DNA of 64,000 nucleotides from Inmirania thermothiophila (GTDB taxonomy: Bacteria > Pseudomonadota > Gammaproteobacteria > DSM-100275). Under the pieces are notes generated by a model. The model was not told where the DNA came from. It made no database searches and saw only the letters and a program-made list of their open reading frames with translations. A program made the position numbers and the translations under genes. Where the stretch lies: assembly GCF_003751635.1 (NCBI RefSeq), contig NZ_RJVI01000002.1:669986-733985 (forward strand). The letters are read 5' to 3'. This document shows, piece by piece, positions 1 to 14,713 of the stretch (its first letter is position 1; each line of letters begins with the position of its first letter).

Positions 1-505
1 AGTCAGCCTGGCGATTTACGATGATCGCCTGGAGATCTGGAGCGACGGCACGTTGCCCGCCGGGCTTACACCTGATGATCTCAAGCGGGACCACCCGTCA
101 AAGCCGCGCAATCCGCTGATCGCCAAGGTGTTCTACCTGCGCGGTGTCATCGAGCGCTGGGGCCGAGGCACACAGAAGATCGTCGAGCTCTGCGTCAAGG
201 CGGGGCACCCGGAGCCCGAGTTCGGCGAACAGGCCGGCAGCGTTTGGGTGCGCTTTTTGCCCAGCGGCTACATCGCCCCGCACCGCGTAGCGCATGACCT
301 CACCGAACGACAGCGGGAGATCCTGCACGTCTTGTCCAAAAAACCGTCTATGCCCCTGCGTGAGATTCGTTCCAGGTTGGAGAATCCGCCGTCTGACCGG
401 AGGCTTCGCGAGGAGCTTTTGCATCTGAAGAAGCTGGGCTTGGTGTCGTCGTCGGGGCATGGCCGGGGATCTGCCTGGTCATTGGTGAGACAAGACAATG
501 GATAA
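1..505 (+). CDS. RecG-C-terminal/AlbA-type ATP-binding protein, 3' end only
   Basis: The gene enters from outside the window; reading starts at base 2 and 167 residues are visible. The stretch with NPLIAKVFYLRG, IERWGRGTQKI and GHPEPEF is the signature of the RecG-C-terminal-related ATPase domain (HATPase_c_4) found in Schlafen/AlbA_2-type proteins. A C-terminal winged-helix-like part follows (about residues 100-165, LTERQREIL ... LRELLHLKKLGLV). Such proteins are common in defence islands and are often annotated as transcriptional regulators or helicase-related; the biochemical role is generally unknown. It lies directly upstream of the BREX-like methyltransferase on the same strand. Another frame beyond the stop can encode a short NKAE-type tail, so the end may be frameshifted. 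Confidence 0.75.
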   Translation, partial: VSLAIYDDRLEIWSDGTLPAGLTPDDLKRDHPSKPRNPLIAKVFYLRGVIERWGRGTQKIVELCVKAGHPEPEFGEQAGSVWVRFLPSGYIAPHRVAHDLTERQREILHVLSKKPSMPLREIRSRLENPPSDRRLREELLHLKKLGLVSSSGHGRGSAWSLVRQDNG

Positions 506-550
506 GGCGGGGAATAAGGCGGAAATAAGGCGGCCTCATTTTGCCTTATT
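502..550. repeat. Triple AATAAGGCGG repeat with inverted copy
   Basis: ATAAGGCGG occurs at 502-510, 513-522 (with a preceding A) and 525-534, and an inverted partner TTGCCTTATT follows at 541-550. The third copy and the inverted copy form an 8-bp perfect dyad (525-532 with 543-550). The block lies between the stop of the upstream gene and the ribosome binding site of the methyltransferase. It could be an operator or attenuator, or simply a relic of NKAE-coding repeats at the 3' end of the upstream gene. Confidence 0.5.
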
Positions 551-575
551 CAGCCAATAAAGGAGTGAAGTTCGC

Positions 576-3500
576 ATGAATTGCCCAGACCTTTTTGAAC
601 ACCAGGAATTCAAAACCAGGAACCAGGGACCGGTCGAATGCCTTGGCCAGACATTCGACTCCGACGAGGCGCGGCGGGAGCACTTCCTTGGCCTCTTGCG
701 CGATATGCTTACGGAACTCCACGCCAAGCTCGGCGGTGTGCCCTTTACCACGGTGGAAGACGCGATTCAGCGTCTCAAGTCTCTTCAGCATTGGCCGGTT
801 GGAGACGAAAGGCGAATCAGGGAATTGGCGGAACGCATGGGTCAAGCGTCACGCGTCCAGCGTCTAGCGTCATCGGATACCGACGCGCGACGCACGACGC
901 GCGACCTTCTGACGCTTTACAAGGACGAGGTCGGCTTCCCGCACGGGGAGATCGAGGACATCCTGAACCTCTCCGATCCTCCGTATTACACGGCGTGTCC
1001 GAACCCCTTCATCGCGAACTTCATCAAGCACTACGGCAAGCCCTATGATCCGAACGTGCCTTACAGCAAGGAGCCATTCGCAGCGGACGTAAGAGAGGGG
1101 AAGAACGATCCCATCTACAACGCGCACTCCTACCACACCAAGGTGCCGCATAAGGCGATCATGCGGTACATCCTGCACTATACCGAGCCGGGCGACGTGG
1201 TCTTCGATGGTTTTGCCGGAACCGGGATGACCGGCGTTGCGGCGCAACTTTGTGGTGACCGCAAGACGGTGGAGTCGCTTGGCTACAAGGTGGATGAGCA
1301 AGGCGTCATCTACCAGCAGGAGGAAGAAACGGATGAGTTTGGCAGAAGGCGCCCGGTCTGGAAGCCCTTCTCAAGGCTCGGCGCCCGGCGTGCCGTCCAC
1401 AACGACCTGTCGCCTGCGGCCACCTTCATCGCCTACAACTACAACACGCCGGTGGATGTGCCGGCCTTCGAGCGCGAAGCCAAACGCATCCTGAAAGAGG
1501 TGGAAGAGGAATGCGGCTGGATGTATCGGACGCTGCACACAGCGTCCTCCAGGATTGAGCAGCGAGGACTGAGCGATGAGTGGGCCGGCAAGCTCAAGGC
1601 CTGCAAGACAGTCGAGGAGATCCGCGCCTTACTCAGCCCTCAGTCCTCAGTCCTCGGCACTGTGAATTACACCGTCTGGTCGGATGTGTTTGTTTGTCCC
1701 GAGTGTACGCGGGAGGTGGTCTTCTGGGAAGCGGCGGTGGACAAGGAAGCGGGCAAGGTGCACAGCGAGTTTCCCTGTCCCCACTGCGGCGCCACACTCA
1801 CCAAGCGCAACATGGACCGCGCCTGGGTGACCCGCTACGACAAGGCCATCGGCCAGGCCATCCGCCAGGCCAAGCAGGTGCCGGTGCTGATCAACTACAG
1901 CGTGGGCAAGAAGCGCTTTGAGAAGACGCCCGACGCCTTCGACCTGGCGCTCATCGAGAAACTCGAGGCGCTGGACATTCCCTACTGGTTCCCGACCGAC
2001 CGGATGCCGGAGGGATACAACACCGAGCAGCCGAAGGTGTCACACGGCCTCACCCACGTGCATCATTTTTATACGAAGCGGAATTTGTGGGGGATTGCTT
2101 CTTTTGTCCACAGAATGCATCGTATCTCAGAGGCTAAACTGCGGTTACGGCTGTTCTTCACAAAGACAGCGGCAGAGCGAATAACGTCTCGACTTGCGAG
2201 TATCGCTTTTAGCTACTTTTTCCATGGAGGCGGGGGTTTTATCAACGCTGGAACTAAGGGGACCTTGTATGTCTCCTCCACGGTTCCAGAGATTCCCGCC
2301 TACACGAGCCTTGAGTCGCGGCTGTTATCTATGAAGTGGGAGCTTCCCGGCAATGCAGTCGTAGCCATCAGCACACAATCGACTACAAGCGCTATATGTA
2401 ATGCAGAATCGGTTGACTATGTGTTCGTAGACCCACCATTTGGGGGAAATCTCATGTATTCCGAGCTGAGCTTCCTATGGGAGGCTTGGCTGAGGAGTTT
2501 CACCAACAACAGGCATGAGGCGATCGAGAACAAAGTCCAGGGCAAAGGCTTGCCGGAGTACCAGCGGCTGATGACCGAGTGCTTCAAGGAATACTACCGG
2601 GTGCTCAAGCCAGGCCGCTGGATGACCGTGGAGTTTCACAACTCCAAGAACAGCGTCTGGAACAGCATTCAGGAAGCACTGCAAACGGCAGGCTTCGTCA
2701 TCGCCGACGTGCGAACGCTAGATAAAAAGCAGGGATCATTCAAACAATACACTTCGGCAAGCGCAGTCAAGCAAGACCTTATAATCTCCGCCTACAAACC
2801 CAACGGTGGCCTTGAGGAACGGTTCAAGCTGACGGCCGGCACCGAGGAAGGTGTCTGGGACTTCGTCCGCACGCACCTGAAGCAGCTTCCGGTGTTCGTC
2901 TCCAAGGACGGCAAGGCGGAGGTCATCGCCGAGCGGCAGAACTACCTGCTCTTCGACCGCATGGTGGCCTTCCACGTCCAGCGGGGCGTGACGGTGCCTC
3001 TCTCCGCGGCGGAGTTCTACGCCGGTCTCGCCCAGCGCTTCCCGGAGCGCGACGGGATGTACTTCCTGCCCGAGCAGGTGGCGGAGTACGACAAGAAGCG
3101 CATGAAGGTGAAGGAGGTCCTGCAACTCCAGCTCTTCGCCACTGATGAGGCCTCCGCCATCCAATGGCTCAAGCAGCAGCTCACCAGGAAGCCGCAGACC
3201 TTCCAGGAGCTCCATCCGCAGTTCCTCAAGGAGATCGGCGGATGGCAGAAGCACGAGAAACCACTCGAGCTCTCCGAGCTGCTGGAACAGAACTTCCTCC
3301 GCTACGACGGCAAGGGCGAGGTGCCGAGCCAGATCCACAGCTACCTCTCCAGCAACTTCAAGGAGCTGCGCAACCTGCCCAAGGACGACGAGCGCCTCCG
3401 GGCCAAGGCCAAGGACCGCTGGTACGTCCCGGACCCCAACAAGGCCAGCGACCTGGAGAAGCTCCGCGAGCGGGCCCTGCTGCGCGAGTTCGAGGAGTAC

Positions 3501-3695
3501 CGCGAGTCCAGCTCGAGGCGCCTGAAGGTGTTCCGCCTCGAGGCCGTCCGCGCCGGCTTCAAGAAGGCATGGCAGGAGCGCGACTACGCCACCATTATCG
3601 CCGTGGCGCGCAAGATCCCCGAGAACGTCCTTCAGGAGGACCCCAAGCTCCTCATGTGGTACGACCAGGCGCTCACGAGGATGGGAGAGGAGTAA
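576..3695 (+). CDS. pglXI: BREX type 3-like DNA methyltransferase PglXI (DUF1156/COG1743)
   Basis: This predicted adenine-specific DNA methyltransferase has 1039 residues. The SAM-binding motif FAGTGMTG is near residue 213 and the catalytic-type motif VDPPFGGN is near residue 618. A separate LSDPPYYTACPNPF segment is near residue 134. A zinc-ribbon follows, CPEC near 374 paired with CPHC near 401, which defines COG1743 (adenine-specific methylase with Zn-ribbon). In BREX type 3 this family (PglXI) modifies host DNA to distinguish it from phage DNA. The start ATG is preceded by AAGGAG at 560-565. The frame contains two heptanucleotide tandem arrays (846-905 and 1632-1659). The downstream order with a SNF2 helicase, PglZ and a BrxA-like protein supports the BREX assignment; that it methylates this host is inference. 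Confidence 0.85.
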   Translation: MNCPDLFEHQEFKTRNQGPVECLGQTFDSDEARREHFLGLLRDMLTELHAKLGGVPFTTVEDAIQRLKSLQHWPVGDERRIRELAERMGQASRVQRLASSDTDARRTTRDLLTLYKDEVGFPHGEIEDILNLSDPPYYTACPNPFIANFIKHYGKPYDPNVPYSKEPFAADVREGKNDPIYNAHSYHTKVPHKAIMRYILHYTEPGDVVFDGFAGTGMTGVAAQLCGDRKTVESLGYKVDEQGVIYQQEEETDEFGRRRPVWKPFSRLGARRAVHNDLSPAATFIAYNYNTPVDVPAFEREAKRILKEVEEECGWMYRTLHTASSRIEQRGLSDEWAGKLKACKTVEEIRALLSPQSSVLGTVNYTVWSDVFVCPECTREVVFWEAAVDKEAGKVHSEFPCPHCGATLTKRNMDRAWVTRYDKAIGQAIRQAKQVPVLINYSVGKKRFEKTPDAFDLALIEKLEALDIPYWFPTDRMPEGYNTEQPKVSHGLTHVHHFYTKRNLWGIASFVHRMHRISEAKLRLRLFFTKTAAERITSRLASIAFSYFFHGGGGFINAGTKGTLYVSSTVPEIPAYTSLESRLLSMKWELPGNAVVAISTQSTTSAICNAESVDYVFVDPPFGGNLMYSELSFLWEAWLRSFTNNRHEAIENKVQGKGLPEYQRLMTECFKEYYRVLKPGRWMTVEFHNSKNSVWNSIQEALQTAGFVIADVRTLDKKQGSFKQYTSASAVKQDLIISAYKPNGGLEERFKLTAGTEEGVWDFVRTHLKQLPVFVSKDGKAEVIAERQNYLLFDRMVAFHVQRGVTVPLSAAEFYAGLAQRFPERDGMYFLPEQVAEYDKKRMKVKEVLQLQLFATDEASAIQWLKQQLTRKPQTFQELHPQFLKEIGGWQKHEKPLELSELLEQNFLRYDGKGEVPSQIHSYLSSNFKELRNLPKDDERLRAKAKDRWYVPDPNKASDLEKLRERALLREFEEYRESSSRRLKVFRLEAVRAGFKKAWQERDYATIIAVARKIPENVLQEDPKLLMWYDQALTRMGEE
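846..905. repeat. Inverted heptamer arrays inside pglXI
   Basis: GCGTC recurs every 7 nt at 846, 853, 860 and 867. After an 8-nt spacer its reverse complement GACGC recurs every 7 nt at 882, 889 and 896, followed by a partial unit. The two arrays are inverted relative to each other and could pair. They are translated in the open frame as part of the linker before the DPPYY segment. Confidence 0.9.
1632..1659. repeat. CTCAGTC heptamer array inside pglXI
   Basis: Four consecutive 7-nt units start at 1632, 1639, 1646 and 1653 (CTCAGCC, CTCAGTC, CTCAGTC, CTCGGCA). The 17-mer CTCAGTCCTCAGTCCTC at 1639-1655 is repeated exactly in brxHII at 5495-5511. The array is translated in frame. Confidence 0.9.
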
Positions 3696-3698
3696 ACC

Positions 3699-5198
3699 AT
3701 GTGTGCCGCGAATCGCCAAACAGTGGATCTAAGTAAATATGCGCGAAACATTCTTGCCGACGAAGATCGTCCTTTATTCGATGAAGCTGTCAAAGCGGGG
3801 AAGGCTGGCGCACTCCGAGCCGCCTACGTGATGATATGGCTGGCATGTGCGGAATCCTTGAAGCGACGCTTCCGTGAGGCGCAAAAACGCGACAGTGCTG
3901 CGGGCAGAATCGTTAGTGATATCGAAAAAAAAGAGCGTGAGCACAAGTCCGTAGATAAATTCGTTTTGGACAAAGCTCACGAGTACGGCTTCTTATCTGA
4001 TTCTGGTCACACAATCCTGAACCACGTCTACGAGATGCGCTGTCTTTACGGCCATCCTTACGAGGAAGCCCCATCGCAGGAGCAAGTGTCACATGCTGCG
4101 GCAGTTGTGGTTGAACACGTGTTGTCCAAGGCAGTCAAGCTACGGCATGGGTTTGGCAAACAGTTGCTTAAGAGTCTGCTGGAGAATCGAAGTTATTTGG
4201 ACGACCAGCAAACGGCAGTTACGGCATTCACCAAGGATATTATCCCAAGGCTGGACGAGAGCATTCATGGCTGGTTACTAGACAATTACTGGGAAGAACT
4301 GGAGAAGTTGGCAGATGATTCATCGATGGCCATCTTCTTCCGACGTGGAATATGGTTTTGCCGTGCGATGCTTATGGAGGTCGGAGTTGGTGTATTCTCA
4401 CATGATGAATGGCATGACAAGGTTAACCGATTTCCGAAGACGCTGATGCGTGTATGTAGTATTGCTGACCTCTTCAGAGAGATCGGCAAACGTGCGCAAG
4501 ATTCGTTGGTTGGCTCGATCCTAGCCGAGTCTGGCACACGTTCCAGTGTCCTTACGTATCTTGAGCGTCTCGACAATGATGGCGCGTTGTCAAAACGCCA
4601 GAAGCAGCGTTTCACCGAGCGCGTATCGCGCTTGTCTTCAAGCGAGCTACGGTCCGCGTCATTGAGCACGAAAACTTGTTTCCAGAACTTGATCAATGCG
4701 TTGCAATCATATACTTGGCCGAAGCAAAACCCAGCGATTGAACTGATTGTTTCGAACGGGCCCGGCCAGGCTGCGGCCCTCAACGAAGAGCAGCAGGTGG
4801 AGCTCGGCCGGAACATTCTCCAAGCTGCTGATGGCAGAGCTTTTTCAGCTTGTGCATTTCTTGAGAAGCTGTCGCAAGATGGGGCATCTTGGCCGTTAGA
4901 CGTTGTTCGGGGTATTGCACTCGAGACGTTCACCAATGAGAAAAACGAAATTCGCTTTAAGGATCGTCATTTGAATAGAGTCCTCTCTGCCCTTGCCCAT
5001 CTCAACAAGAAGCAACGTGAGCAGATTGTCGCTGAGATTGTAGCATCGGTAGACGTTGGCAGTCCCAAGAGTTGGGTGGGCAGGAAAGATTTCGACAGTG
5101 TTATCGAGTCTTTGAGGGCTTATAAGTGGACCGCGCCGTTGATATCGAGGCTCGAAGCGAAGGCGGCGTCTCTCCCCGGTGAAGATGAAGAGTGGTGA
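3699..5198 (+). CDS. Uncharacterised HEPN-like protein embedded in the BREX locus
   Basis: The protein has 499 residues and I do not recognise it as a named family. Residues about 30-165 are helical with an internal motif MRCLYGHPYEE, in which R114 and H119 form the R-x4-H signature of HEPN ribonuclease domains; the following helix (QVSHAAAVVVEHVLS) fits the usual C-terminal HEPN helix. The remaining ~330 residues look alpha-helical and repetitive, with no membrane segment or signal peptide. It starts 3 nt after the methyltransferase stop, so it is probably co-transcribed. Its base composition is AT-richer than both flanking BREX genes, suggesting later insertion between pglXI and brxHII. The proposed function (RNase-type abortive effector or accessory factor) is inference. 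Confidence 0.6.
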   Translation: MCAANRQTVDLSKYARNILADEDRPLFDEAVKAGKAGALRAAYVMIWLACAESLKRRFREAQKRDSAAGRIVSDIEKKEREHKSVDKFVLDKAHEYGFLSDSGHTILNHVYEMRCLYGHPYEEAPSQEQVSHAAAVVVEHVLSKAVKLRHGFGKQLLKSLLENRSYLDDQQTAVTAFTKDIIPRLDESIHGWLLDNYWEELEKLADDSSMAIFFRRGIWFCRAMLMEVGVGVFSHDEWHDKVNRFPKTLMRVCSIADLFREIGKRAQDSLVGSILAESGTRSSVLTYLERLDNDGALSKRQKQRFTERVSRLSSSELRSASLSTKTCFQNLINALQSYTWPKQNPAIELIVSNGPGQAAALNEEQQVELGRNILQAADGRAFSACAFLEKLSQDGASWPLDVVRGIALETFTNEKNEIRFKDRHLNRVLSALAHLNKKQREQIVAEIVASVDVGSPKSWVGRKDFDSVIESLRAYKWTAPLISRLEAKAASLPGEDEEW

Positions 5199-5301
5199 CT
5201 ATTGAGCGATGAAAGCGGATCAAATGCGGCAGGATTCGATAGGGAAGTCAACTAAGAAAGTGTCAAGAAACCGTGTACAAACCAGGTGGAACTGAAGAAG
5301 G

Positions 5302-8133
5302 ATGAGCCAAGCGACGCGTTCATCATCTTTCAATAAGCAGCCATTTGCCGAGGGCGATTGGGTACTCGTCCATCCACACCAAGTATTGGGCAGGATCATT
5401 GAGAAGTCTGTCCTGTGGGGCAATGCATTTTTCCGCGTCTGGCTTCCATCAACCGATTCGATCATCCGCGTCGATGCTTCAGCTCTTTCACCTACTCAGT
5501 CCTCAGTCCTCAGCACTCATCACTTGACCTATCTCGCCGCGGCGGCGCGGGTCGCCGATGCGCTGACCCAGGACGTCCTGCTTGCGCCCATCGAATCTTC
5601 CGTCATCCCGTTGCCACACCAGATTCGGGCTCTCTCCAGGGCCATTTCCAACGACCGCGTGCGCTATCTCCTGGCGGACGAGGTGGGCCTCGGCAAGACC
5701 ATCGAGGCAGGTCTCATCATGCGGGAACTCAAGCTCCGGGGCCTGGTGAGGCGGACGCTGGTGATCGCCCCGAAGGGCCTGGTGACCCAATGGGTGGCGG
5801 AGATGCGCACCCACTTCGGGGAGGAGTTCCGCCTCCTCATCCCGAGCGACTTCTCCGCCTACCGCCGCATCGCCCGGGAGGACAACCTCTGGCAGAGCCA
5901 TCCACAGGTGGTCTGCCCCATGGACTCTGTGAAACCCCTGGACGGCCGGCGCGGCTGGTCGAGGCAGCAGGTGGCCGAGTACAACCGGGAGCGTTTCGAG
6001 GACCTGATCTCCGCCGGCTGGGACCTGGTGATCGTGGACGAGGCCCATCGCTTGGGTGGAAGCACGGACCAGGTGGCCCGCTACAAGCTCGGCCAGGGGC
6101 TGGCCGAGGCCGCGCCCTACCTGCTCCTGCTCTCCGCCACACCGCACCAGGGTAAGACCGATGCCTTCCACCGGCTGATCTCCCTGGTCGACGCCCAGGC
6201 CTTCCCCGACGTGAGCAGCGTGACCAAGGAGCGGGTACAGCCCTACGTCATCCGCACGGAGAAGCGCCGCGCCATCGACGCGGAGGGCAAGCCGCTTTTC
6301 AAACCCCGGCGCACGGAGCTGGCACCGGTCTCCTGGGAGGATCGCCACCGGGATCAACGGCTGCTCTACGAGGCGGTCACCGAATACGTGCGCGAGGGCT
6401 ACAACCAGGCCATGCGCGAAAAGCGCAGCTACATCGGATTCCTCATGATCCTGATGCAGCGCCTGGTGGTCTCCAGCACCCGCGCCATCCGCACCACCCT
6501 GGAGCGGCGCCTCGAAGCGCTCGAGGCCCCACAGGAACAGCTCACACTCTTCCCGCAGCTCAGCGAGGAGGACTGGGCCGACCTGGACGGCCAGGAGCAG
6601 ATGGACACGCTGCTCAAGACCCGGCTCAAGGCCCTGAAGAATGAACGGGCCGAGGTGAAGCTGCTTCTGGAAGCGGCAAGACGCTGCGAAGCCCAAGGCC
6701 CGGACGCCAAGGCCGAAGCGCTCCTGGACTGGATCTACCGTCTCCAGGCTGAGGAAGGCGACCCGGATCTCAAGGTGCTGGTGTTCACCGAGTTCGTGCC
6801 GACCCAGGAGATGCTGTACGAGTTCCTGACCGAGCGTGGCTTCGAGGTGGTGTGTCTCAACGGCTCCATGGACATGGAGGAGCGCAAGCGGGTCCAGGAC
6901 GCATTCGCCAAGGATGCCCGCATCCTCATCTCGACGGACGCCGGTGGTGAGGGTCTCAACCTCCAGTTCTGTCATGTGGTCATCAACTACGACATCCCCT
7001 GGAACCCGATGCGCCTGGAACAACGCATCGGCCGGGTGGACCGCATCGGCCAGACCCATACGGTGCGCGCCATCAACTTCGTGTTCGAGGACTCGGTCGA
7101 ACACCGTGTCCGCGAGGTCCTGGAGGAGAAACTGGCGGTCATCTTCGAAGAGTTCGGCATCGACAAGACCGGTGACGTGCTCGACTCGGCCCAGGCGGGC
7201 CAGATCTTCGATGATCTGTATGTGGAGGCCATCCTCAACCCTGATGTGGTGGAGACGAAGGTCGACGAGGTCCTGAAAAACATCCAGGAGCAGGCCTGGG
7301 AGTCCCGACAGAGCGCCTCCGTGCTCGGCTCTACCGAGGACCTGGACCCTCGTGAGGCCCAGCGGCTGCTGTCCCACCCGCTCCCGCATTGGGTGGAGCG
7401 CATGACGGTAAGCTACCTGCAGGCTCACGGCGGTAAGGCTGAGAGGAAGAACGGCGCCTGGGATCTCACTTGGCCCAACGGCGAGCGACTGACCAATGTC
7501 GTCTTCACCAGCAAGGAGGCTGAAGAGAAGCCTCTGAGCCGCCACTTGACGCTGGAAGATCCCAAGGTGCGTGGGCTGGCCATGCGCCTACCTCCCTTTG
7601 CCCCTGGACAACCGGTCCCGGTCATCACGCTTACCAACCTTGCCCCAGAGATCATGGGTTTCTGGTCACTCTGGCGAATCTCGATCTCGACCGCCGACTG
7701 GAACCGCCGCCGGATCATGCCTTTGTTCCTGGCCGACGACGGTCGGGTGTTCGCGCCGACTGCCCGGCACATCTGGGATCAACTGGTGGTAACGAAGCCC
7801 ACGATCCTGCGGCATTTGGACGTCGAGACCTCTCATCAAGCCTTCGAGCGACTGCAGGAGGCGGCGGAACGACAGGGGAAGACGATCTACGACGAGCTGG
7901 TGCAGGCTCACCGGGAGCGTCTTGCTCGGGAGCGTGAGAAGGGCGAGTACGCCTTCGCTGCGCGACGCAGAGCCATCGAGCGCATCGGACTGCCCCAGGT
8001 CCGTAACCATCGCCTGAGTCTCTTGGAACAGGAGGAAGAACGCTTCAGGGAACAACTCGAGCGCAGGGCCCAGATCTTGCCGGAAATGGCGCCCCTGCTT
8101 CTCGTCCGCGTGGAGGGAGGCGCCCATGGGTAG
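5302..8133 (+). CDS. brxHII: SNF2-family helicase, BREX type 3-like BrxHII
   Basis: This SNF2/HepA-type superfamily 2 ATPase (COG0553) has 943 residues. Motif I DEVGLGKT lies near residues 126-133, motif II DEAH near 246, motif III SATPHQG near 277, and the C-terminal helicase motifs STDAGGEGLNL near 544 and QRIGRVDRIGQ near 574. The ~300-residue C-terminal extension is charged and helical. In BREX type 3 loci a COG0553 helicase (BrxHII) sits between the methyltransferase and PglZ, as here. The start ATG directly follows a GAAGAAGG stretch, which is close spacing. A heptamer array interrupts the N-terminal region at 5495-5520. The pglZ gene overlaps its last 8 bases. Confidence 0.85.
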   Translation: MSQATRSSSFNKQPFAEGDWVLVHPHQVLGRIIEKSVLWGNAFFRVWLPSTDSIIRVDASALSPTQSSVLSTHHLTYLAAAARVADALTQDVLLAPIESSVIPLPHQIRALSRAISNDRVRYLLADEVGLGKTIEAGLIMRELKLRGLVRRTLVIAPKGLVTQWVAEMRTHFGEEFRLLIPSDFSAYRRIAREDNLWQSHPQVVCPMDSVKPLDGRRGWSRQQVAEYNRERFEDLISAGWDLVIVDEAHRLGGSTDQVARYKLGQGLAEAAPYLLLLSATPHQGKTDAFHRLISLVDAQAFPDVSSVTKERVQPYVIRTEKRRAIDAEGKPLFKPRRTELAPVSWEDRHRDQRLLYEAVTEYVREGYNQAMREKRSYIGFLMILMQRLVVSSTRAIRTTLERRLEALEAPQEQLTLFPQLSEEDWADLDGQEQMDTLLKTRLKALKNERAEVKLLLEAARRCEAQGPDAKAEALLDWIYRLQAEEGDPDLKVLVFTEFVPTQEMLYEFLTERGFEVVCLNGSMDMEERKRVQDAFAKDARILISTDAGGEGLNLQFCHVVINYDIPWNPMRLEQRIGRVDRIGQTHTVRAINFVFEDSVEHRVREVLEEKLAVIFEEFGIDKTGDVLDSAQAGQIFDDLYVEAILNPDVVETKVDEVLKNIQEQAWESRQSASVLGSTEDLDPREAQRLLSHPLPHWVERMTVSYLQAHGGKAERKNGAWDLTWPNGERLTNVVFTSKEAEEKPLSRHLTLEDPKVRGLAMRLPPFAPGQPVPVITLTNLAPEIMGFWSLWRISISTADWNRRRIMPLFLADDGRVFAPTARHIWDQLVVTKPTILRHLDVETSHQAFERLQEAAERQGKTIYDELVQAHRERLAREREKGEYAFAARRRAIERIGLPQVRNHRLSLLEQEEERFREQLERRAQILPEMAPLLLVRVEGGAHG
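5495..5520. repeat. CTCAGTC heptamer array inside brxHII
   Basis: Units start at 5495, 5502, 5509 and 5516 (CTCAGTC, CTCAGTC, CTCAGCA, CTCAT). It shares a 17-nt identity with the array in pglXI. It is translated as a short Ser/Thr/Gln-rich stretch about 65 residues into the helicase. Confidence 0.9.
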
Positions 8134-10132
8134 TTGGCGTGACCAAATCCTGAGTGAGTTCACACCCCAGGTCGCCCGGCTTACCCTGGTCGCGGATCCG
8201 GACGGCCTGCTCCTTGAAGAAGGTGTCCTCGAAGGGATCCGGGAACGGGGCTTTGAGCTGATCCCGTTCGAGGATCATGTCGCCTTTCGCTATGCCTACG
8301 AATCCAAGTTCCGCTCCCGCTGGGACCGCGGCGAGGAAACCGATCTGGTGGTGGTGCTGAGATCGCCTTCGAGCGATCTCGATGCCTTGCCCTACGACCT
8401 GCTGCAGGCTGGCCGCAAGCTCTCGTTCAACCTGGGCGATCTCTTCCCGAATCTCAGCTATCCCGTGGTCGCGGCGCTCGACCGGGCTGATCTCGACGCC
8501 TTGTTCGATGCGCAATTGAGGCACGCGCCGGGGCAGCTCGGCGACAACGCTACGAAGGAGTTCGTCCTTCGTCATGTGTTCGAGATCGCTCCGGAACTCA
8601 TCAAGCAGCCATCGGACCTACTCCGGGTCTTGCTGCGTCGTCATTACCGCGGACAACGAATCCCGGCCATCCTCGATGAGCGCTTTATCCAGGTGCTTCG
8701 TCAAAACGGCCTGTTCGAGGATTGGCCTCTGGAAGCCATCATTCCGGACGCGCAAGCATTCTTTGCGTTCCTGCAGGAGCGCTGGCCGGTGTTCCTGGAT
8801 TCGCTCGCAAAGCCGAAGGACGATGCCGTCCACGAGGACGCGGCGGACTACGGCTTCGAGTTCCCAGGACCGACGCTTTTGCCTTTCGACCACCACGATG
8901 TCCGCATTTACATCGACAACCTTTTCCTCGAGGGCTTGCTCCAGCCGGTTCCTCACGAGCAATCGCAAGCGCTCGCCAAGACCTGGGTGGCTTACGGCAT
9001 CAAAGTCTCCCCCGTGGAGAACCGTCGCCGCCGCATGGAGGGGCTGCTGGATTCCATCGAGAAGACGATCCCCACGGTGCAGGCGCGTTATGGGGAGTGG
9101 CTCCATTTCGCCTACCGTTGGGCGGAACTCGTCGCTTTGGAGCTGGAGCCGGACACCACCCTGCCGGAAGAATACCGGGAGCGCCTGGAGGCATTGAGAT
9201 CCCGGATCGATTCTGCGCTCACCGATTGGGTGGTGAAGCGCTACGCGAGCCTGATCAACCTTCCGCCCGCGCCGCCGGTGATGCTGCATCACATCCCGCG
9301 GTTCCTCGCCCGAAGCCTCGGAGACGACCGGCGCACGAAGATCGCTTTTCTGCTGGTGGACGGCCTCGCCCTGGACCAATGGATCGCCTTGCGCGAGGTG
9401 CTCGGAGAGCTGGATTCGAAGCTGCGGTTCCGTGAGAACGCCGTTTTCGCTTGGATTCCCACCATCACCTCGGTTTCCCGTCAGGCCGCCTTTGCCGGCA
9501 AGCCGCCGATCTACTTCCCGGCGAGTATCCATACCACAGACAAGGAGCCGGGCCTTTGGACGCAGTTCTGGGTCGATCAGGGGCTGACGCAGCATGAGGT
9601 AGCTTACGCCAAGGGGCTGGGCGACGGGGACATGGACGAGGTCTCCGAGCTACTGAGCCGGCCCAGGCTACGTGTCGTCGGACTGGTCATCGACAAGGTC
9701 GACCGGATCATGCACGGCATGGAGCTGGGTGCAGCGGGGATGCACAACCAGGTTCGGCAATGGGCCAGGCAGGGTTTCATGCGGGACCTTCTCGGCCTGC
9801 TCCATGACCGCGGTTTCCAGGTCTACCTTGCCTCGGACCACGGCAACATCGAGGCGAAAGGCGCAGGACGGCCTGCCGAAGGGGCGGTTGCGGACCTGCG
9901 CGGCGAGCGCGTGCGTGTCTACTCCGATCCCAGGCTCAGGGCTCAAATCAAGGAGCGATTCCCGGAGTCCTTGGAGTGGCCCTCGGTGGGCCTCCCAGAG
10001 GACTACCTCGCCCTCATCGCTCCGAACCGGGCTGCTTTCGTGCGGGCGGGTGAAACCCTCGTCGGTCATGGAGGCATTAGTGTCGAGGAACTGCTCGTCC
10101 CTCTTGTCCAGATCGATAGGAGGGACCGATGA
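8126..10132 (+). CDS. pglZ: BREX type 3-like phosphatase-domain protein PglZ
   Basis: The protein has 668 residues. The C-terminal half matches the PglZ alkaline-phosphatase fold: a metal-site segment FLLVDGLALDQW near residues 407-418, the ITSVSRQAAFAGKPP stretch, and ASDHGNIEAKG near 568-578, which supplies the second metal ligands. The N-terminal ~350 residues are the helical region seen in long PglZ proteins. PglZ is the hallmark gene of all BREX systems; its enzymatic role in defence is not settled. It overlaps brxHII by 8 nt and the next gene by an ATGA junction, and has a strong GGAGGGAGG ribosome binding site, so translation of the three genes is probably coupled. Confidence 0.88.
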   Translation: MGSWRDQILSEFTPQVARLTLVADPDGLLLEEGVLEGIRERGFELIPFEDHVAFRYAYESKFRSRWDRGEETDLVVVLRSPSSDLDALPYDLLQAGRKLSFNLGDLFPNLSYPVVAALDRADLDALFDAQLRHAPGQLGDNATKEFVLRHVFEIAPELIKQPSDLLRVLLRRHYRGQRIPAILDERFIQVLRQNGLFEDWPLEAIIPDAQAFFAFLQERWPVFLDSLAKPKDDAVHEDAADYGFEFPGPTLLPFDHHDVRIYIDNLFLEGLLQPVPHEQSQALAKTWVAYGIKVSPVENRRRRMEGLLDSIEKTIPTVQARYGEWLHFAYRWAELVALELEPDTTLPEEYRERLEALRSRIDSALTDWVVKRYASLINLPPAPPVMLHHIPRFLARSLGDDRRTKIAFLLVDGLALDQWIALREVLGELDSKLRFRENAVFAWIPTITSVSRQAAFAGKPPIYFPASIHTTDKEPGLWTQFWVDQGLTQHEVAYAKGLGDGDMDEVSELLSRPRLRVVGLVIDKVDRIMHGMELGAAGMHNQVRQWARQGFMRDLLGLLHDRGFQVYLASDHGNIEAKGAGRPAEGAVADLRGERVRVYSDPRLRAQIKERFPESLEWPSVGLPEDYLALIAPNRAAFVRAGETLVGHGGISVEELLVPLVQIDRRDR

Positions 10133-10911
10133 ACAGTCGCCTGACCCAGATCGGTTTCAGCCAGCGGGTCCGTCTTGAATGGCTGGAGAGAACGGCCAAC
10201 CTGGTGCTTGCCGGAAACGACGAGGCGTCCATCTACAACGCCCTCCAAGAGCTGCTCGAAGACAAGCTGTCTGTCGGCGGGAATGCCAAACGCGGCAATC
10301 GGGAGAAGGTGATCACCATTCTGATGAAGATCTGGGTCCGCCCCCCGCGCGACCTCCATCCCCTTCAGCGGGAAGGCCTCAAGCTTCTCTCACACCTGCC
10401 GCGTGAGGACCATATCGCGGTCCACTGGGGCCTGGCCATGGCGGTTTATCCGTTCTGGGGGGCCGTAGCGGCCCATGTGGGGCGACTGCTCAGGCTCCAG
10501 GGAACGGCCGCAGCCAGCCAGGTACAGCGCCGTGTGCGGGAGCAATATGGGGAACGCGACACGGTATCCAGAGCGGCACGACGGGTGCTGCGGAGCTTCG
10601 TCGATTGGGAGGTCCTGAAGGAAACATCGGAAAAAGGCATCTATACCGCTGGGCTTTCACTCGCCATAGCTCAGGTGGAGGTTATCGCCTGGTTGGCCGA
10701 GGCCTTCTTGCACGCTCATCCCAACGGTTCGGTGGCTCTGAGAACGGTCCTCGATTCCACGAGCCTGTTCCCGTTCCGTCTCAGCCCAATATCCGCAGAC
10801 CACCTGGTCGCGGTATCCGGACGGCTCGATGTGCTGCGACACGGCCTTGACCAGGACTTGATCATGCTCCGCACGGAAAGCCTGCCAGCGGCGAAGGGAG
10901 GCGGATCATGA
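10129..10911 (+). CDS. BrxA-like BREX protein (candidate)
   Basis: This 260-residue, largely helical protein has no transmembrane segments. The central part (EDHIAVHWGLAMAVYPFWGAVAAHVGRLLRLQG, then repeated VQRRV/RRVLRSFVDW helices) resembles the layout of BrxA/DUF1819 proteins, which are small helical nucleic-acid-binding BREX components. The position immediately after pglZ in an ATGA overlap is where brxA lies in BREX type 3. I cannot confirm family membership without a profile search; it might instead be a lineage-specific BREX component. Confidence 0.55.
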   Translation: MNSRLTQIGFSQRVRLEWLERTANLVLAGNDEASIYNALQELLEDKLSVGGNAKRGNREKVITILMKIWVRPPRDLHPLQREGLKLLSHLPREDHIAVHWGLAMAVYPFWGAVAAHVGRLLRLQGTAAASQVQRRVREQYGERDTVSRAARRVLRSFVDWEVLKETSEKGIYTAGLSLAIAQVEVIAWLAEAFLHAHPNGSVALRTVLDSTSLFPFRLSPISADHLVAVSGRLDVLRHGLDQDLIMLRTESLPAAKGGGS

Positions 10912-11057
10912 CGCTTTCGGATCATCGACTCCATGATCTGATTCGCTTCTATGAAATTCTCGATATGTTTGCCGAGAGAATTGGTGGGCCGAGAATGCTG
11001 ACAGAATGTGCTGGCCGGGTACGGCTGAATACGAACCAGGAAACCAGAGAGGTGTGA
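10908..11057 (+). pseudogene. Truncated remnant resembling a GIY-YIG nuclease N-terminus
   Basis: The frame opens with ATGA overlapping the stop of the brxA-like gene and runs 49 codons. The first ~37 residues (LHDLIRFYEILDMFAERIGGPRMLTECAGR, in part) resemble the N-terminus of a bacterial GIY-YIG nuclease family that normally continues with a WP-x-RGVYFFFE segment. Here the sequence diverges right after CAGR and stops 2 nt before the next gene. The family resemblance is from memory and needs a search. The reading is that a BREX-linked nuclease gene was cut away when the downstream restriction gene arrived. Confidence 0.45.
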
Positions 11058-11059
11058 AC

Positions 11060-12862
11060 ATGCCGTCAAGAGGCGAGATCAAGAGCGAGAAGATTCTGGT
11101 GAAGGATATCTTTTCCCGGATGTGGTTCCGGGTTCCCGAGTACCAGCGTCCCTACGTGTGGGGCCGGGAAGAGATTGCCGACCTTCTTGATGACGTGACC
11201 TTTGCCATGACGGAAAAGCCCGATTTCGAGTATTTCCTGGGCTCGTTCGTGTTCCAGTCCAAGCCCGCAGCGCCGGATAGCGGACAGGAGTTTGACGAAA
11301 ACGACCTTCTCGACGGGCAGCAGCGCATGGCGACGTTGCTCATGCTTTTTGCCGTGCTGCGAGATTTGGCGGAGGACCCCGACGCCAAGGACGACTGCCA
11401 GAAGTGCATCTATCAGAAAGCCAGCAAATACAAGGTCATTCCGGAACGAACCCGCCTAGTGTTCGCCATACGTGATGAGGTGCAAAAGTTCATCGATGAG
11501 TTCGTCAAGGCCGACGGCGGCACGAACCGAGAGGATGACCTGAAGCGTATGGTTTCCAAGGGAGGAGACGTATCCGTGCGGAACATGGCCGCCGCCATCC
11601 TCGAGATCCGCGGGTTCTTCCGCGAGAACCCGAACACGAAGCCCGAAGACCTGCTCCAGTTTCTCCTCAACAAGGTGCTTCTCATCTACGTCTCGACCGA
11701 AGACCTTGAAGATGCCTTCCGGTTGTTCATGATCCTTAACGATCGGGGCATCCCCCTTCGCAACAGCGACATCCTGAAGTCCATGAATCTCGGGGCCTTG
11801 GAGAGCGAGGAAGAGAAGGTCAAGTACGCCAAAATGTGGGAGGAGGCGGAAAGCGAGCTTGGGGATGACTTTGATCGATTCCTCAACCACGTGCGGACCA
11901 TCCTGGTGAAGGACAAGGCGCGGCTGAGTCTTCTTCAGGAGTTCGAGGACAAGATTTACAACCCCAAGGAGCGGGACAAGGCGACAGGTCAGAAAAAACC
12001 CGTGCTCCTCAAGAAAGGGCGCGAGACATTTGAGCTGATCGAGCGATACCTGGGGCAGTATCGGACCTTGCTGGGCGGCCAAAACTACGACGAAACCGGC
12101 GGCAGCTTCGAGTTCGACAACCTTATCAAGGTCATGCTCACGGGGCTGCCTGCAACGGACTGGGTCCCGCCTTTGCTCAGGTATTTCGACAAGTTTAAAT
12201 ACGACCGCATTCTGGAGTTCTTGAAACGCCTCGATAACAAGTTCTCGGCCGACTGGATTTGCCAGTACACTCCCACGGACCGTATCGCTGCGATGAACAA
12301 GATCATCCAGGCAATCGATGACGCCAACACTGTGGACGACCTTTTTTCCACCGACGTTTTCGACATTGATGAAGGATCGCTCGTCCGAATGTTGGACGGA
12401 GCGGTATATGGCCGGCGATTTGCCCGATATCTGCTTCTGAAACTTGACTACCTCTACCAGAACCACGACCAGCGGATGCATTTCGAGACCCTGTCTGTCG
12501 AGCATGTTCTGCCGCAAAACCCAACGGAAGACAGCCAGTGGGTCAAAGATTTTTCAGAAGAAGAGCGAAACGAGTGGACCGACAAGCTCGGTAACCTTGT
12601 ACTCATAACCCGGCGCAAGAACTCGTCGCAAGGGCGACTGGATTACTCAGAGAAGCGCAAAAGGTACTTTGAGAAAAACATAGACACCTGCACCAATTCC
12701 CTTCGTGTCCTGCGAAGTGAAAAATGGACTCCCACCGAACTGAAGGCAAATCACAAGACGGTCCTAAAAAAGCTCGGAAAGCACTACGGGATCAACGTGG
12801 ATGTGGTCTCCGCAGTCAAGGACGTGAATACGGATGGGTCGGAGGTGCCAAATGCCGAATAG
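11060..12862 (+). CDS. GmrSD-like DUF262/DUF1524 restriction protein
   Basis: The protein has 600 residues. The N-terminal DUF262 (ParB-like/GmrS) domain shows VPEYQRPYVWGREE and the nucleotide-interacting LLDGQQRMATL segment near residues 75-85. The C-terminal DUF1524 (GmrD-type HNH nuclease) domain shows VEHVLPQNP near 480 and KLGNLVLI with a following N. GmrSD proteins are type IV enzymes that cut glucosylated or otherwise modified phage DNA. ATG 11060 is preferred over an earlier in-frame ATG at 11006 because it has AGAGAGGTG just upstream and matches the DUF262 boundary. A type IV nuclease next to BREX would cover phages whose modified DNA escapes other defences. Confidence 0.88.
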   Translation: MPSRGEIKSEKILVKDIFSRMWFRVPEYQRPYVWGREEIADLLDDVTFAMTEKPDFEYFLGSFVFQSKPAAPDSGQEFDENDLLDGQQRMATLLMLFAVLRDLAEDPDAKDDCQKCIYQKASKYKVIPERTRLVFAIRDEVQKFIDEFVKADGGTNREDDLKRMVSKGGDVSVRNMAAAILEIRGFFRENPNTKPEDLLQFLLNKVLLIYVSTEDLEDAFRLFMILNDRGIPLRNSDILKSMNLGALESEEEKVKYAKMWEEAESELGDDFDRFLNHVRTILVKDKARLSLLQEFEDKIYNPKERDKATGQKKPVLLKKGRETFELIERYLGQYRTLLGGQNYDETGGSFEFDNLIKVMLTGLPATDWVPPLLRYFDKFKYDRILEFLKRLDNKFSADWICQYTPTDRIAAMNKIIQAIDDANTVDDLFSTDVFDIDEGSLVRMLDGAVYGRRFARYLLLKLDYLYQNHDQRMHFETLSVEHVLPQNPTEDSQWVKDFSEEERNEWTDKLGNLVLITRRKNSSQGRLDYSEKRKRYFEKNIDTCTNSLRVLRSEKWTPTELKANHKTVLKKLGKHYGINVDVVSAVKDVNTDGSEVPNAE

Positions 12863-12979
12863 CGTTCCCGATATCAATCCCACCAATAGCAGCCGAATGC
12901 ACTGGGTCGATCAAAACGGCACCGCCTGCGGGGGAAACAGGATGCGCCTTGAGGGAACGACATGCATGGAGGTGAAACA

Positions 12980-13213
12980 ATGCCAAGACGTAAGACTTAC
13001 CATGTGACTCCTCGGACCGACGGCGGCTGGAACGTCAAAGAAGAAAATGCGTCAAGGGCGTCCAGCAGCCACGATACGAAGGCCGAGGCCATAGCCCGTG
13101 CCAAGGAATTGGCGAAGAAGCAGGCGCTTGGACAGGTGATCATTCACAAGCAGGACGGTACGATCCAGACGGAACACACATACGGCAAGGATCCGTATCC
13201 GCCCGAAGGATAA
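12980..13213 (+). CDS. DUF2188-family small protein
   Basis: The 77-residue basic protein has the pattern TYHVTPRTDGGWNV...A..AS..H.TKAEAIARAKELAKKQ..GQVIIHKQDGTIQTEHTYG, which matches DUF2188. The function is unknown; members are commonly found near mobile and defence genes. ATG 12980 is chosen because GGAGGTGAAAC lies just upstream and the domain starts there. It is followed 13 nt later by the DUF4236-TPR gene, so the two are probably one transcript. Confidence 0.75.
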   Translation: MPRRKTYHVTPRTDGGWNVKEENASRASSSHDTKAEAIARAKELAKKQALGQVIIHKQDGTIQTEHTYGKDPYPPEG

Positions 13214-13226
13214 CAGGACGTTCCGG

Positions 13227-14342
13227 ATGAGCTTCCGCTTCTGGAGACGAATCAGGATCGCACCGGGCGTGACCCTGAACCTGAGCAAGTCGGGCGGCTC
13301 TCTTTCGTTCGGGCCGCGCGGGGCGAAGTTCACCATCGGTCCGAGGGGCAAGCGGGCCACGGTGGGCATCCCGGGAACAGGCCTTTTCTACACGACCACG
13401 CTTCCGAGCGGGAGGTCCAGCGGTAGGAGAAGCGCGTCCTACTCCGCTCCGGCCGTCCCAACGGTCCGCCCGGAAGACCGGCTGACGCTGGGTTTCTTCA
13501 AGCGGCTCATCACGCCGGACGACGAGGAGGCCCTGGTGGACGGGTGCCGGGAGTTGGTGCTGGGGAATGAGGACAAGGCGCTTCAGCACCTTGAACAGGC
13601 GACTCACCTGGCCGACGGCGCGTACCTCGCCGGTTTCCTGGCGCTCAAGCAGGAGCGGCTGATCGAGGCCGCGAACTATCTGGCGACGGCCGCCGAGAAG
13701 TACCGCCGATTGGGAACCTACTTCTCCAAGTACGGCATCTCCGCCACCATGAGTCTCCCCATCACAGACGAGGTGTCCGCGCATGTGGGGCCGGATCTCC
13801 GCGGCGTGCTGTTGGGCCTGGTGGAGGTCTATCAGCGTCAGGAGCGCTGGGAGGATGCGATTGCCTGCCTGGAGCGCTTGCTGCGCCTCGAACCCGACGA
13901 CGTGGTGGTGAAGCTGTCCCTCGCGGAGCTGCTGTTGGACGCCCGCCCGGGCGACAAGACAAATCGGCAGGAGAGCCGATTTGGACGTGCCGAAGGCACG
14001 CCCGAAGGGCGCGAGCCACGGACGGCGAGCGTCAACGTCTGCCGGAAGATCGTGCGGTTGGCCGAAGGCATCGAGAACGAGACGCCGGTCCACACCGCTC
14101 TGCTGCTCTACAAGGCCAGGGCCCTGCGTGGGCTCGGGCTCCTGATTGCTGCGCGGGAGACCCTGACGGGCGCCCTGCGCCGGAGGAAAGGCCGGTCCGA
14201 GGAACTGCTCCGGGCGCTCCGGTACGAACGGGCCCTGGTCTACGAGAACCTCGGCCAGCGCCGGCGGGCGCACAGCGAGCTCGAGAAGCTCTACGCCGAG
14301 GACCCGGACTACGAGGACGTGGCGGCCCGGTTGGGACTGTAG
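13227..14342 (+). CDS. DUF4236 plus TPR-repeat protein with an in-frame palindromic insertion
   Basis: The protein has 371 residues. Residues 1-60 (FRFWRRIRIAPGVTLNLSKSGG, SFGPRGAKFTIGPRGKRATVGIPGTGLFY) are a DUF4236 domain. The rest is a series of helical tetratricopeptide-like repeats (LEQATHLADGAYLAGFLALKQ, VYQRQERWEDAIACLERLLRLEPDDV, YERALVYENLGQRRRAHSELEKLY), suggesting a scaffold role. Residues about 245-270 are encoded by a palindromic DNA element and interrupt the TPR pattern with a Gly/Arg/Glu-rich stretch that looks unlike the rest. No signal peptide or membrane segment is evident. Function unknown. Confidence 0.75.
   Translation: MSFRFWRRIRIAPGVTLNLSKSGGSLSFGPRGAKFTIGPRGKRATVGIPGTGLFYTTTLPSGRSSGRRSASYSAPAVPTVRPEDRLTLGFFKRLITPDDEEALVDGCRELVLGNEDKALQHLEQATHLADGAYLAGFLALKQERLIEAANYLATAAEKYRRLGTYFSKYGISATMSLPITDEVSAHVGPDLRGVLLGLVEVYQRQERWEDAIACLERLLRLEPDDVVVKLSLAELLLDARPGDKTNRQESRFGRAEGTPEGREPRTASVNVCRKIVRLAEGIENETPVHTALLLYKARALRGLGLLIAARETLTGALRRRKGRSEELLRALRYERALVYENLGQRRRAHSELEKLYAEDPDYEDVAARLGL
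13960..14036 (+). repeat. Palindromic repeat element, copy 1 (inside the TPR gene)
   Basis: A 9-bp stem CAAATCGGC/GCCGATTTG with 6-nt loop lies at 13960-13983. Then come GGACG, a 6-bp stem CGTGCC/GGCACG with loop GAA at 13986-14000, the mini-hairpin CCCGAAGGG at 14001-14009, and a tail containing GCCACGGACGGC. The length keeps the reading frame open. Confidence 0.8.
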
Positions 14343-14370
14343 CGGAAATCCGCATCAACGCCGTTTCCGC
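14342..14370. terminator. Hairpin at the end of the TPR gene
   Basis: GCGGAAA (14342-14348) and TTTCCGC (14364-14370) form a 7-bp stem starting on the last base of the stop codon. There is no U-run after it, so termination is uncertain. Confidence 0.35.
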
Positions 14371-14403
14371 CCCCTCGGGGATGTGCCGCTCTTTGAAAAG
14401 ATA

Positions 14404-14432
14404 TTGTGTATCAACTGGTTAGGTGATATCCT
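14404..14432 (+). promoter_or_regulatory. Candidate promoter with extended -10
   Basis: TTGTGT (14404-14409), a 17-nt spacer and TATCCT (14427-14432) preceded by TGA give a plausible sigma-70 promoter with an extended -10. It lies in an unusually AT-rich patch of the island/core junction. Confidence 0.45.
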
Positions 14433-14438
14433 GGCGGT

Positions 14439-14525
14439 GGAGAGTGGTTATGAAGAGGGTTGCAAGCGGGGAGCCATTCCTGAAATAGAAGGCCTGGCAA
14501 CCCGCACCAGGCCTTTCTCGTTTGT
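14439..14525 (+). ncRNA. Candidate short leader-type RNA with a 12-codon reading frame
   Basis: Downstream of the promoter at 14404-14432 lies GGAG (14439-14442), then ATG 14450 opening a 12-codon frame (MKRVASGEPFLK) ending at TAG 14486-14488. A hairpin starts on the very next base: AAGGCCTGG (14489-14497), 9-nt loop, CCAGGCCTT (14507-14515), followed by a mixed T-containing tract. The arrangement resembles a leader peptide plus attenuator, but the gene it would control is not obvious (DUF488 is 280 nt further). Expression and translation are unproven. Confidence 0.3.
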
Positions 14526-14532
14526 CCAAGCC

Positions 14533-14640
14533 AGGCTCTCACCGCCTCTCGGCGGCTGACCGCGGCCCTCCCTGGCCGCGGCCCTTCGGGCGCACTGCGT
14601 GCGTCCGATTCCGCTCCCGGCGGAATCGTCGAGCGCGTCC
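14533..14640 (-). repeat. Palindromic repeat element, copy 2 (degenerate, opposite orientation)
   Basis: Consecutive perfect hairpins: CCGCC/GGCGG (14542-14555), CCGCGGCC/GGCCGCGG (14560-14581), GCCC-TTC-GGGC (14581-14591), CGCAC/GTGCG (14591-14603), CGATTCCGC/GCGGAATCG (14606-14628). Read on the minus strand the order is 9-bp hairpin, GGACG, short hairpin, CCCGAAGGG, then GCCAGGGAGGGC. This is the same architecture as the copy inside the TPR gene. Confidence 0.65.
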
Positions 14641-14659
14641 CGGGGAGCCGGCCCCCACC

Positions 14660-14713
14660 AAGGCCCGGCTTCCCCGCCAGGCCTTTCTCCTTCCGCCCCC
14701 TGCCCCCTGCCCC
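14660..14713. repeat. Second AAGGCC...GGCCTTTCTC palindrome and GCCCCCT heptamers
   Basis: AAGGCC (14660-14665) and GGCCTT (14680-14685) repeat the stem ends of the hairpin at 14489-14515, and CCAGGCCTTTCTC occurs in both. It is followed by GCCCCCT at 14695 and 14702 with a partial third unit, another heptamer array. Otherwise I see nothing coding between 14343 and 14801. Confidence 0.6.

Follow-up and report, generated by a model that had tools for sequence, protein, structure and literature searches.

A dispersed, probably mobile three-hairpin DNA repeat found within protein genes and at the T-loops of tRNA genes

Two structured repeats in a 64,000-nucleotide stretch of the Inmirania thermothiophila genome (the window) are copies of a dispersed family of short, non-autonomous, REP-like hairpin elements, which we regard as probably mobile DNA that is moved in trans as a folded single strand. 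The sequence-only reading of this DNA had placed two copies with a common module order here, and the pattern CCCGAAGGG-N(0-8)-GCCANGGANGGC was indeed found twice in the 64 kb and in 0 of 100 shuffles. As it had described, the copies lie in opposite orientation about 500 bp apart (13958-14035 on the plus strand and 14556-14630 on the minus strand, ~520 bp apart), and these are exactly the matches in the window (87.1 and 87.5 bits, respectively) of covariance model R1, which was built partly from the two copies themselves. That reading did not recognise how strongly the element is linked to tRNA T-loops, nor the target rule GA|A (the bar marks the insertion point), nor the origin of copy 2. The features of copy 1 and its host gene are as follows.

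13227..14342, plus strand: host gene, encoding a DUF4236 + TPR protein of 371 aa including a 25-aa insert (Pfam DUF4236, TPR_14)
13960..14034, plus strand: copy 1, the inserted element, C...TCA, 75 bp (exact gap in ~20 homologues; covariance-model match)
13960..13983, plus strand: hairpin H1, 9 bp, loop AGGAGA (fold; covariation)
13986..14000, plus strand: hairpin H2, 6 bp, GAA triloop, preceded by GGA (covariation; triloop survey)
14001..14009, plus strand: conserved linker CCCGAAGGG (CCC-GNA-GGG in most distinct copies)
14008..14033, plus strand: hairpin H3, ACGGAC loop, internal tandem G.A (covariation)

The consensus of the family reads GAC-H1-GGAC-H2-CCCGNAGGG-H3(ANGGAN loop)-TCAA, a unit of ~72-75 bp with three hairpins. 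It starts with GAC in 108 of 132 copies. H1 has 9 bp and a CGGGA or AGGANA loop, with GGA in most H1 loops; H2 has a variable stem closed by a GNA triloop, mostly of the form C-GNA-G; the linker is CCC-GNA-GGG in 47/55 distinct copies; and the H3 loop is ANGGAN in nearly all of them, the unpaired H3 positions forming a tandem G.A in 17 of 22 rows. Relative to shuffled sequence, RNA folding gave z-scores of −4.7 for copy 1 and −4.1 for copy 2. In a model of eight copies, 14/24 pairs changed on both sides, and compensatory change was seen in 22/24 pairs of a 60-copy alignment that was fitted to the model itself, with slid controls far below. Among 55 distinct copies, covariation was found at 9/9 pairs of H1 and 5/5 modelled pairs of H2, while 8/10 pairs of H3 changed on both sides. 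Chance similarity of the two window copies is ruled out by the shuffles and by covariation. C-GNA-G triloops are exceptionally stable in DNA, and the presence of GNA triloops in most H2 loops and in the 47/55 linkers thus points to a folded DNA strand.

As the sequence-only reading had claimed, the first copy is inside the TPR gene and leaves its frame open, although the insert amounts to 25 codons (exactly 75 bp, in frame) rather than the ~26 residues it had counted. The host protein carries DUF4236 as its N-terminal domain, besides TPRs. Of 75 homologous loci, ~20 could be aligned on both sides of the insert and show a gap of precisely 75 bp there; insert-free homologues are 1038 bp long. 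The empty site in one of them (L045) is GGGCGACAAGA|ACGTC, the window version being GGGCGACAAGACAAATC...GCGTCAACGTC, and the ends of copy 1 are ambiguous by one A, so that 13959-14033 is equivalent to 13960-14034. The insert is present in three homologues: L044 and L048, where the frame is kept and the base is the same, and L113, where it is shortened. In a tree of the insert-free alignment, the sisters of L048 and L044 are both empty, namely L053 (support 1.0) and L047 (support 0.99), respectively. The pairing of carriers with empty sisters indicates that gain, loss or recombinational exchange of the insert took place repeatedly at a single, exact base; carriers could differ from their sisters by homologous recombination and not by excision or insertion. 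Between the three full inserts, 8/9 substitutions fall in loops or linker, a post hoc comparison of small number. Translation of copy 1 would be passive tolerance of a stop-free, in-frame insert. The host gene itself (L044-L063) shows 73-93% identity across metagenome-assembled genomes labelled as many phyla, with mosaic trees, a spread that appears to reflect recent horizontal transfer or mis-binning.

Wherever an empty site could be read it was GA|A, with intact flanks and no target duplication beyond the ambiguous A. The site is AAGA|ACGT in the TPR gene and ACGA|ACGC in YqeY, where the insert splits the Pfam domain and the insert-free reading gives the expected VDERI. In an HsdR-like helicase, where the insert shifts the frame, it is AGGA|ATTC (GAGGA|ATTC), and in one case an element interrupts another element, at ACGA|ATTT. 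Further open-frame copies are those in ComEC, in a TOTE primase-helicase and in DUF6079; when 72 or 75 bp long, a copy in a protein gene can stay open in frame. In one genome (G135), the BREX helicase holds three element-like in-frame inserts and PglZ has two within the gene and a third at its end, aligning to gaps in, or beside, the uninterrupted homologues in our window; the BREX operon concerned, with several in-frame copies in each of the two genes, is at C1:1262000-1281900 of that genome (L199). Such 24-25 residue inserts in proteins, BREX defence proteins included, are copies of a DNA hairpin and not products of protein evolution.

The proposal of a dispersed, structured family that invades genes is borne out by these inserts in YqeY, ComEC, the BREX helicase and PglZ and by copies elsewhere in the genome and the class. 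A covariance-model search gave five strong copies in the I. thermothiophila genome, namely the two in the window and three at C1:359516, C1:359434 and C2:661385. The sequence-only reading had named a lack of further genomic copies, and homologues with the same residues, as what would speak against it; since further copies exist and most homologues are insert-free, neither objection holds. The element occurs in at least 81/229 genomes of the class and at least 69/249 of the phylum, both lower bounds with 19-21 candidates scored per genome, and fuller counts in five genomes gave 78, 34, 15, 13 and 12 copies. The class would be Gammaproteobacteria, judging from the E. coli and Aeromonas matches. 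Among plasmids, copies were limited to a single 4.9-Mb record, from Aeromonas caviae, and the phage collection had none; six of 15 pattern matches in viral contigs look real. As a side observation, C1:359434-359590 of the I. thermothiophila genome holds two tandem copies directly before the uvrA reading frame.

Copy 2 has the same architecture, as had been proposed; rather than having inserted separately near copy 1, it belongs to a 209-bp duplicate of a tRNA-Asn gene tail. Its features are as follows.

576..12862, plus strand: island cargo, comprising PglXI, an unknown 499-aa gene, BrxH helicase, PglZ, BrxA and a GmrSD-type enzyme (PADLOC; Pfam)
14467..14675, plus strand: 209-bp duplicate (91%) of the tRNA-Asn tail, with acceptor end, terminator, hairpin and element (blastn to L215 6297-6505)
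14542..14555, unstranded: inverted-T-arm hairpin CCGCC-TCTC-GGCGG adjoining copy 2, as at other tRNA-linked copies (sequence)
14556..14630, minus strand: copy 2 of the element (covariance-model match, 87.5 bits)
14629..14649, plus strand: second tRNA-Asn 3' remnant TCGAGCGCGTCCCGGGGAGCC flanking copy 2, i.e. the interrupted T-loop (compared with tRNA-Asn ...GGTTCGAGCCCGTCCCGGGGAGCCA)

The source tRNA-Asn gene lies at C2:661230-661305 of the same genome (ARAGORN), 23 kb from copy 2, and the shared 209 bp hold, in order, the 3' acceptor CGGGGAGCCA, the terminator, the inverted-T-arm hairpin, the element and a second tRNA 3' end. Direct repeats of the tRNA-Asn tail stand at the edges of a BREX + GmrSD region that spans C2:661300-684660 (window 1-14675). 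BrxF and BrxC, just left of the window, fall between the two repeats together with PglXI, BrxH, PglZ, BrxA and the GmrSD-type enzyme. Judging from this arrangement, the region is probably a defence island that has tRNA-Asn-tail repeats as its boundaries and carries the TPR gene as cargo. Copy 1 would then have entered the genome as cargo of the island, and copy 2 would have arrived with the island boundary. Inspection of the locus revealed no integrase beside the tRNA-Asn gene. The 499-aa protein encoded within the BREX operon (window 3699-5198) is of unknown family, with only a weak match to PD-T7-3.

The T-loop of tRNA genes is a hot spot of the element. When the best-match locus of each genome was considered, 14 of 29 lay no more than 300 bp from a tRNA gene, many isotypes being represented, against a chance expectation of ~1% (about 45 tRNAs in 3 Mb). 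Genomes rich in the element have most of their copies away from tRNAs (tRNA-linked: 0/70, 1/26 and 2/10). The T-loop site, TTCGA|ATCC, can be read on both strands. Copies at tRNAs sit inside copies of the tRNA 3' end, with an intact tRNA upstream, in units that run inverted T-arm hairpin, T-arm half, element, other T-arm half, acceptor, CCA and terminator and that recur every 165-180 bp. Both orientations of the element with respect to the tRNA are found, as expected of a palindromic TTCGAA DNA target rather than of a sense RNA. A self-splicing intron was also considered; the intact tRNA genes upstream and the frameshifting insert speak against it.

A similar arrangement surrounds the RtT RNA (RF00391, rttR) of E. 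coli tyrT/tyrV, which, like the tRNA-linked copies of the element, stands behind a tRNA within repeated tRNA 3' ends. The tyrT/tyrV repeats begin at the A of TTCGA|ATCC, the same T-loop base as the element, and follow the same order of inverted T-arm hairpin, H1, H2, CCCGAAGGG and H3 with tandem G.A. By contrast, the sequences and loops of H1 and H3 have diverged, the ANGGAN loop is absent, and RtT has been described as one locus-bound RNA, whereas the element family is dispersed over many tRNAs and genes. Covariance model R2 scored the tyrT/tyrV repeats at 13.7-18.9 bits with filters off, these being the best matches of that locus. The Rfam RtT model scored 40.5 bits (E 1.6e-4) at one locus of the element (L136) and 36.9 bits at another (L168), over the whole model; no score reached its gathering threshold of 45 bits, and the window stretch had no RtT match. 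Copy 2 shares the location of RtT, lying in a tRNA-tail copy, and copy 1 does not. From these sequence comparisons we take the tyrT/tyrV repeats as distant relatives of the element rather than as formal members. Sub-threshold matches to sX4 (Proteobacterial sRNA, RF02223) at L136 1312-1485 and L170 2113-2231 overlap tRNA-Ser genes and their tails.

How the element might move is suggested by its ends. REPs are thought to move as single-stranded DNA through an HUH/Y1-like enzyme acting in trans, and the element would likewise move as a folded single strand, cut and joined in trans by an HUH/Y1-like endonuclease. Its precise, duplication-free insertion (at the TPR, YqeY, HsdR-like and nested sites), its hairpin ends and its right end of GNA, hairpin and TCA(A) recall IS200/IS605. 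The right end of IS608 consists of the guide GAAT, a hairpin and the cleavage site TCAA (PMC5934647), to which GNA, H3 and TCAA of the element would correspond. In the element, however, linker and TCA variants do not covary as strict guide/cleavage pairing predicts, the target is different and there is no transposase gene. Y1_Tnp was absent from the element's own genome in a gene search. Linkage to a Y1_Tnp/RAYT gene was rejected, since the element was absent from all 30 Y1_Tnp loci examined (0/30); co-occurrence of Y1_Tnp and element was weak (64/81 versus 92/148 genomes, p = 0.011). The copies in G135 showed no replichore orientation bias. With no transposase of this type linked or in the genome, no strand bias and no guide/cleavage covariation, the single-strand DNA step is one that we infer.

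The conserved entity might instead be an RNA, either an RtT-like tRNA-tail RNA or a CsrA/RsmA-binding element, the copies being regulatory RNA hairpins that have spread. The loop of H3, a putative site, matches the ANGGAN consensus for CsrA-type proteins, GGA recurs in H1, a G-U pair is kept in 46/53 copies, and the RtT scores and the module order shared with E. coli tyrT fit such an RNA. We nevertheless consider it unlikely, because tRNA-linked copies lie in both orientations, many copies are antisense in open frames, the E. coli repeats lack the ANGGAN loop, the GNA triloops favour DNA and the RtT threshold is never reached. It is very improbable that an RNA with a tRNA 3' end was reverse-transcribed and then integrated at T-loops: the tRNA-linked units do hold T-arm, acceptor, CCA and terminator beside the element, but the copies in genes are free of tRNA sequence and the RT-3 RNA match is weak and at chance level (E 0.29).

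GTAG REPs with RAYT/TnpA-REP are dispersed hairpin DNA with intragenic in-frame copies reported (PMC3733652, PMC6006769); the element has no GTAG or GTGG tag (GGAC/CCCGNAGGG instead) and no linked RAYT gene. CGTC REPs and Rickettsia RPEs are short hairpin repeats that enter genes in frame and lack a dedicated transposase (PMC3733652). The CGTC-tagged superfamily takes in Rickettsia RPE-4/6 and Neisseria dRS3; that the element is a divergent branch of it, whose H2 and H3 form a structured tail, seems to us quite unlikely. Reverse-complemented H1 does start with CGTC(C); its stem is 8-9 bp long and A/T-rich on the outer side, and its loops have 5-6 nt. The element, like CGTC REPs (PMC3733652), has no linked transposase (judged on Y1_Tnp genes) and lies in frame in genes. 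On the opposite strand, the GGAC(G) that follows H1 becomes (C)GTCC, with the register off by one base. Yet the first stem pair is C-G in 49/54 copies, not A-T, and the second is A-U in 25/53, so that the A-T pairs of the CGTC type at pairs 1 and 2 are not found; the CCA tail is absent; and CGTC REPs and RPEs consist of one hairpin of 20-30 bp, whereas three hairpins and a linker are constant over the ~75 bp of the element. Constant H2, linker and H3, the GA|A target and the T-loop preference are undescribed for CGTC REPs and RPEs. The preferred reading remains a REP-like family of mobile hairpin DNA. We raise as a tentative extension that it forms a new class of mobile DNA, minimal in size and fixed in its body of three hairpins, which would target T-loops at GA|A, restore the tRNA by the 3' end it carries, be the source of the tyrT repeats and be moved by a so far unknown enzyme that acts on single-stranded DNA.

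Hairpin repeats that lie in frame within genes are already known, as are CGTC REPs that lack a transposase (PMC3733652), while the three-hairpin family, the GA|A rule, the T-loop hot spot and the tyrT link were not found in the open-licence papers searched. The family joins three things that have been treated separately, namely REP/RPE-type repeats in genes, repeated tRNA 3' tails (tyrT/RtT) and site-specific insertion at tRNA T-loops. Its clear target rule and the natural presence/absence pairs make mobility directly testable, and the model lets annotators identify inserts and tRNA-tail repeats of this kind.

Some copies adjoin or lie within larger elements. In one genome (G236; L286, L291-L294, L300), copies with identical or near-identical cores abut an IS110-family transposase gene; IS621 abuts E. 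coli REPs in like manner. The IS110-type transposase, which makes up the larger shared block next to the element, was considered as autonomous parent and looks like a separate associated element. The same holds for a 325-bp terminal-inverted-repeat MITE in another genome (G121; L204-L208), which contains the element and has carried it to at least five sites.
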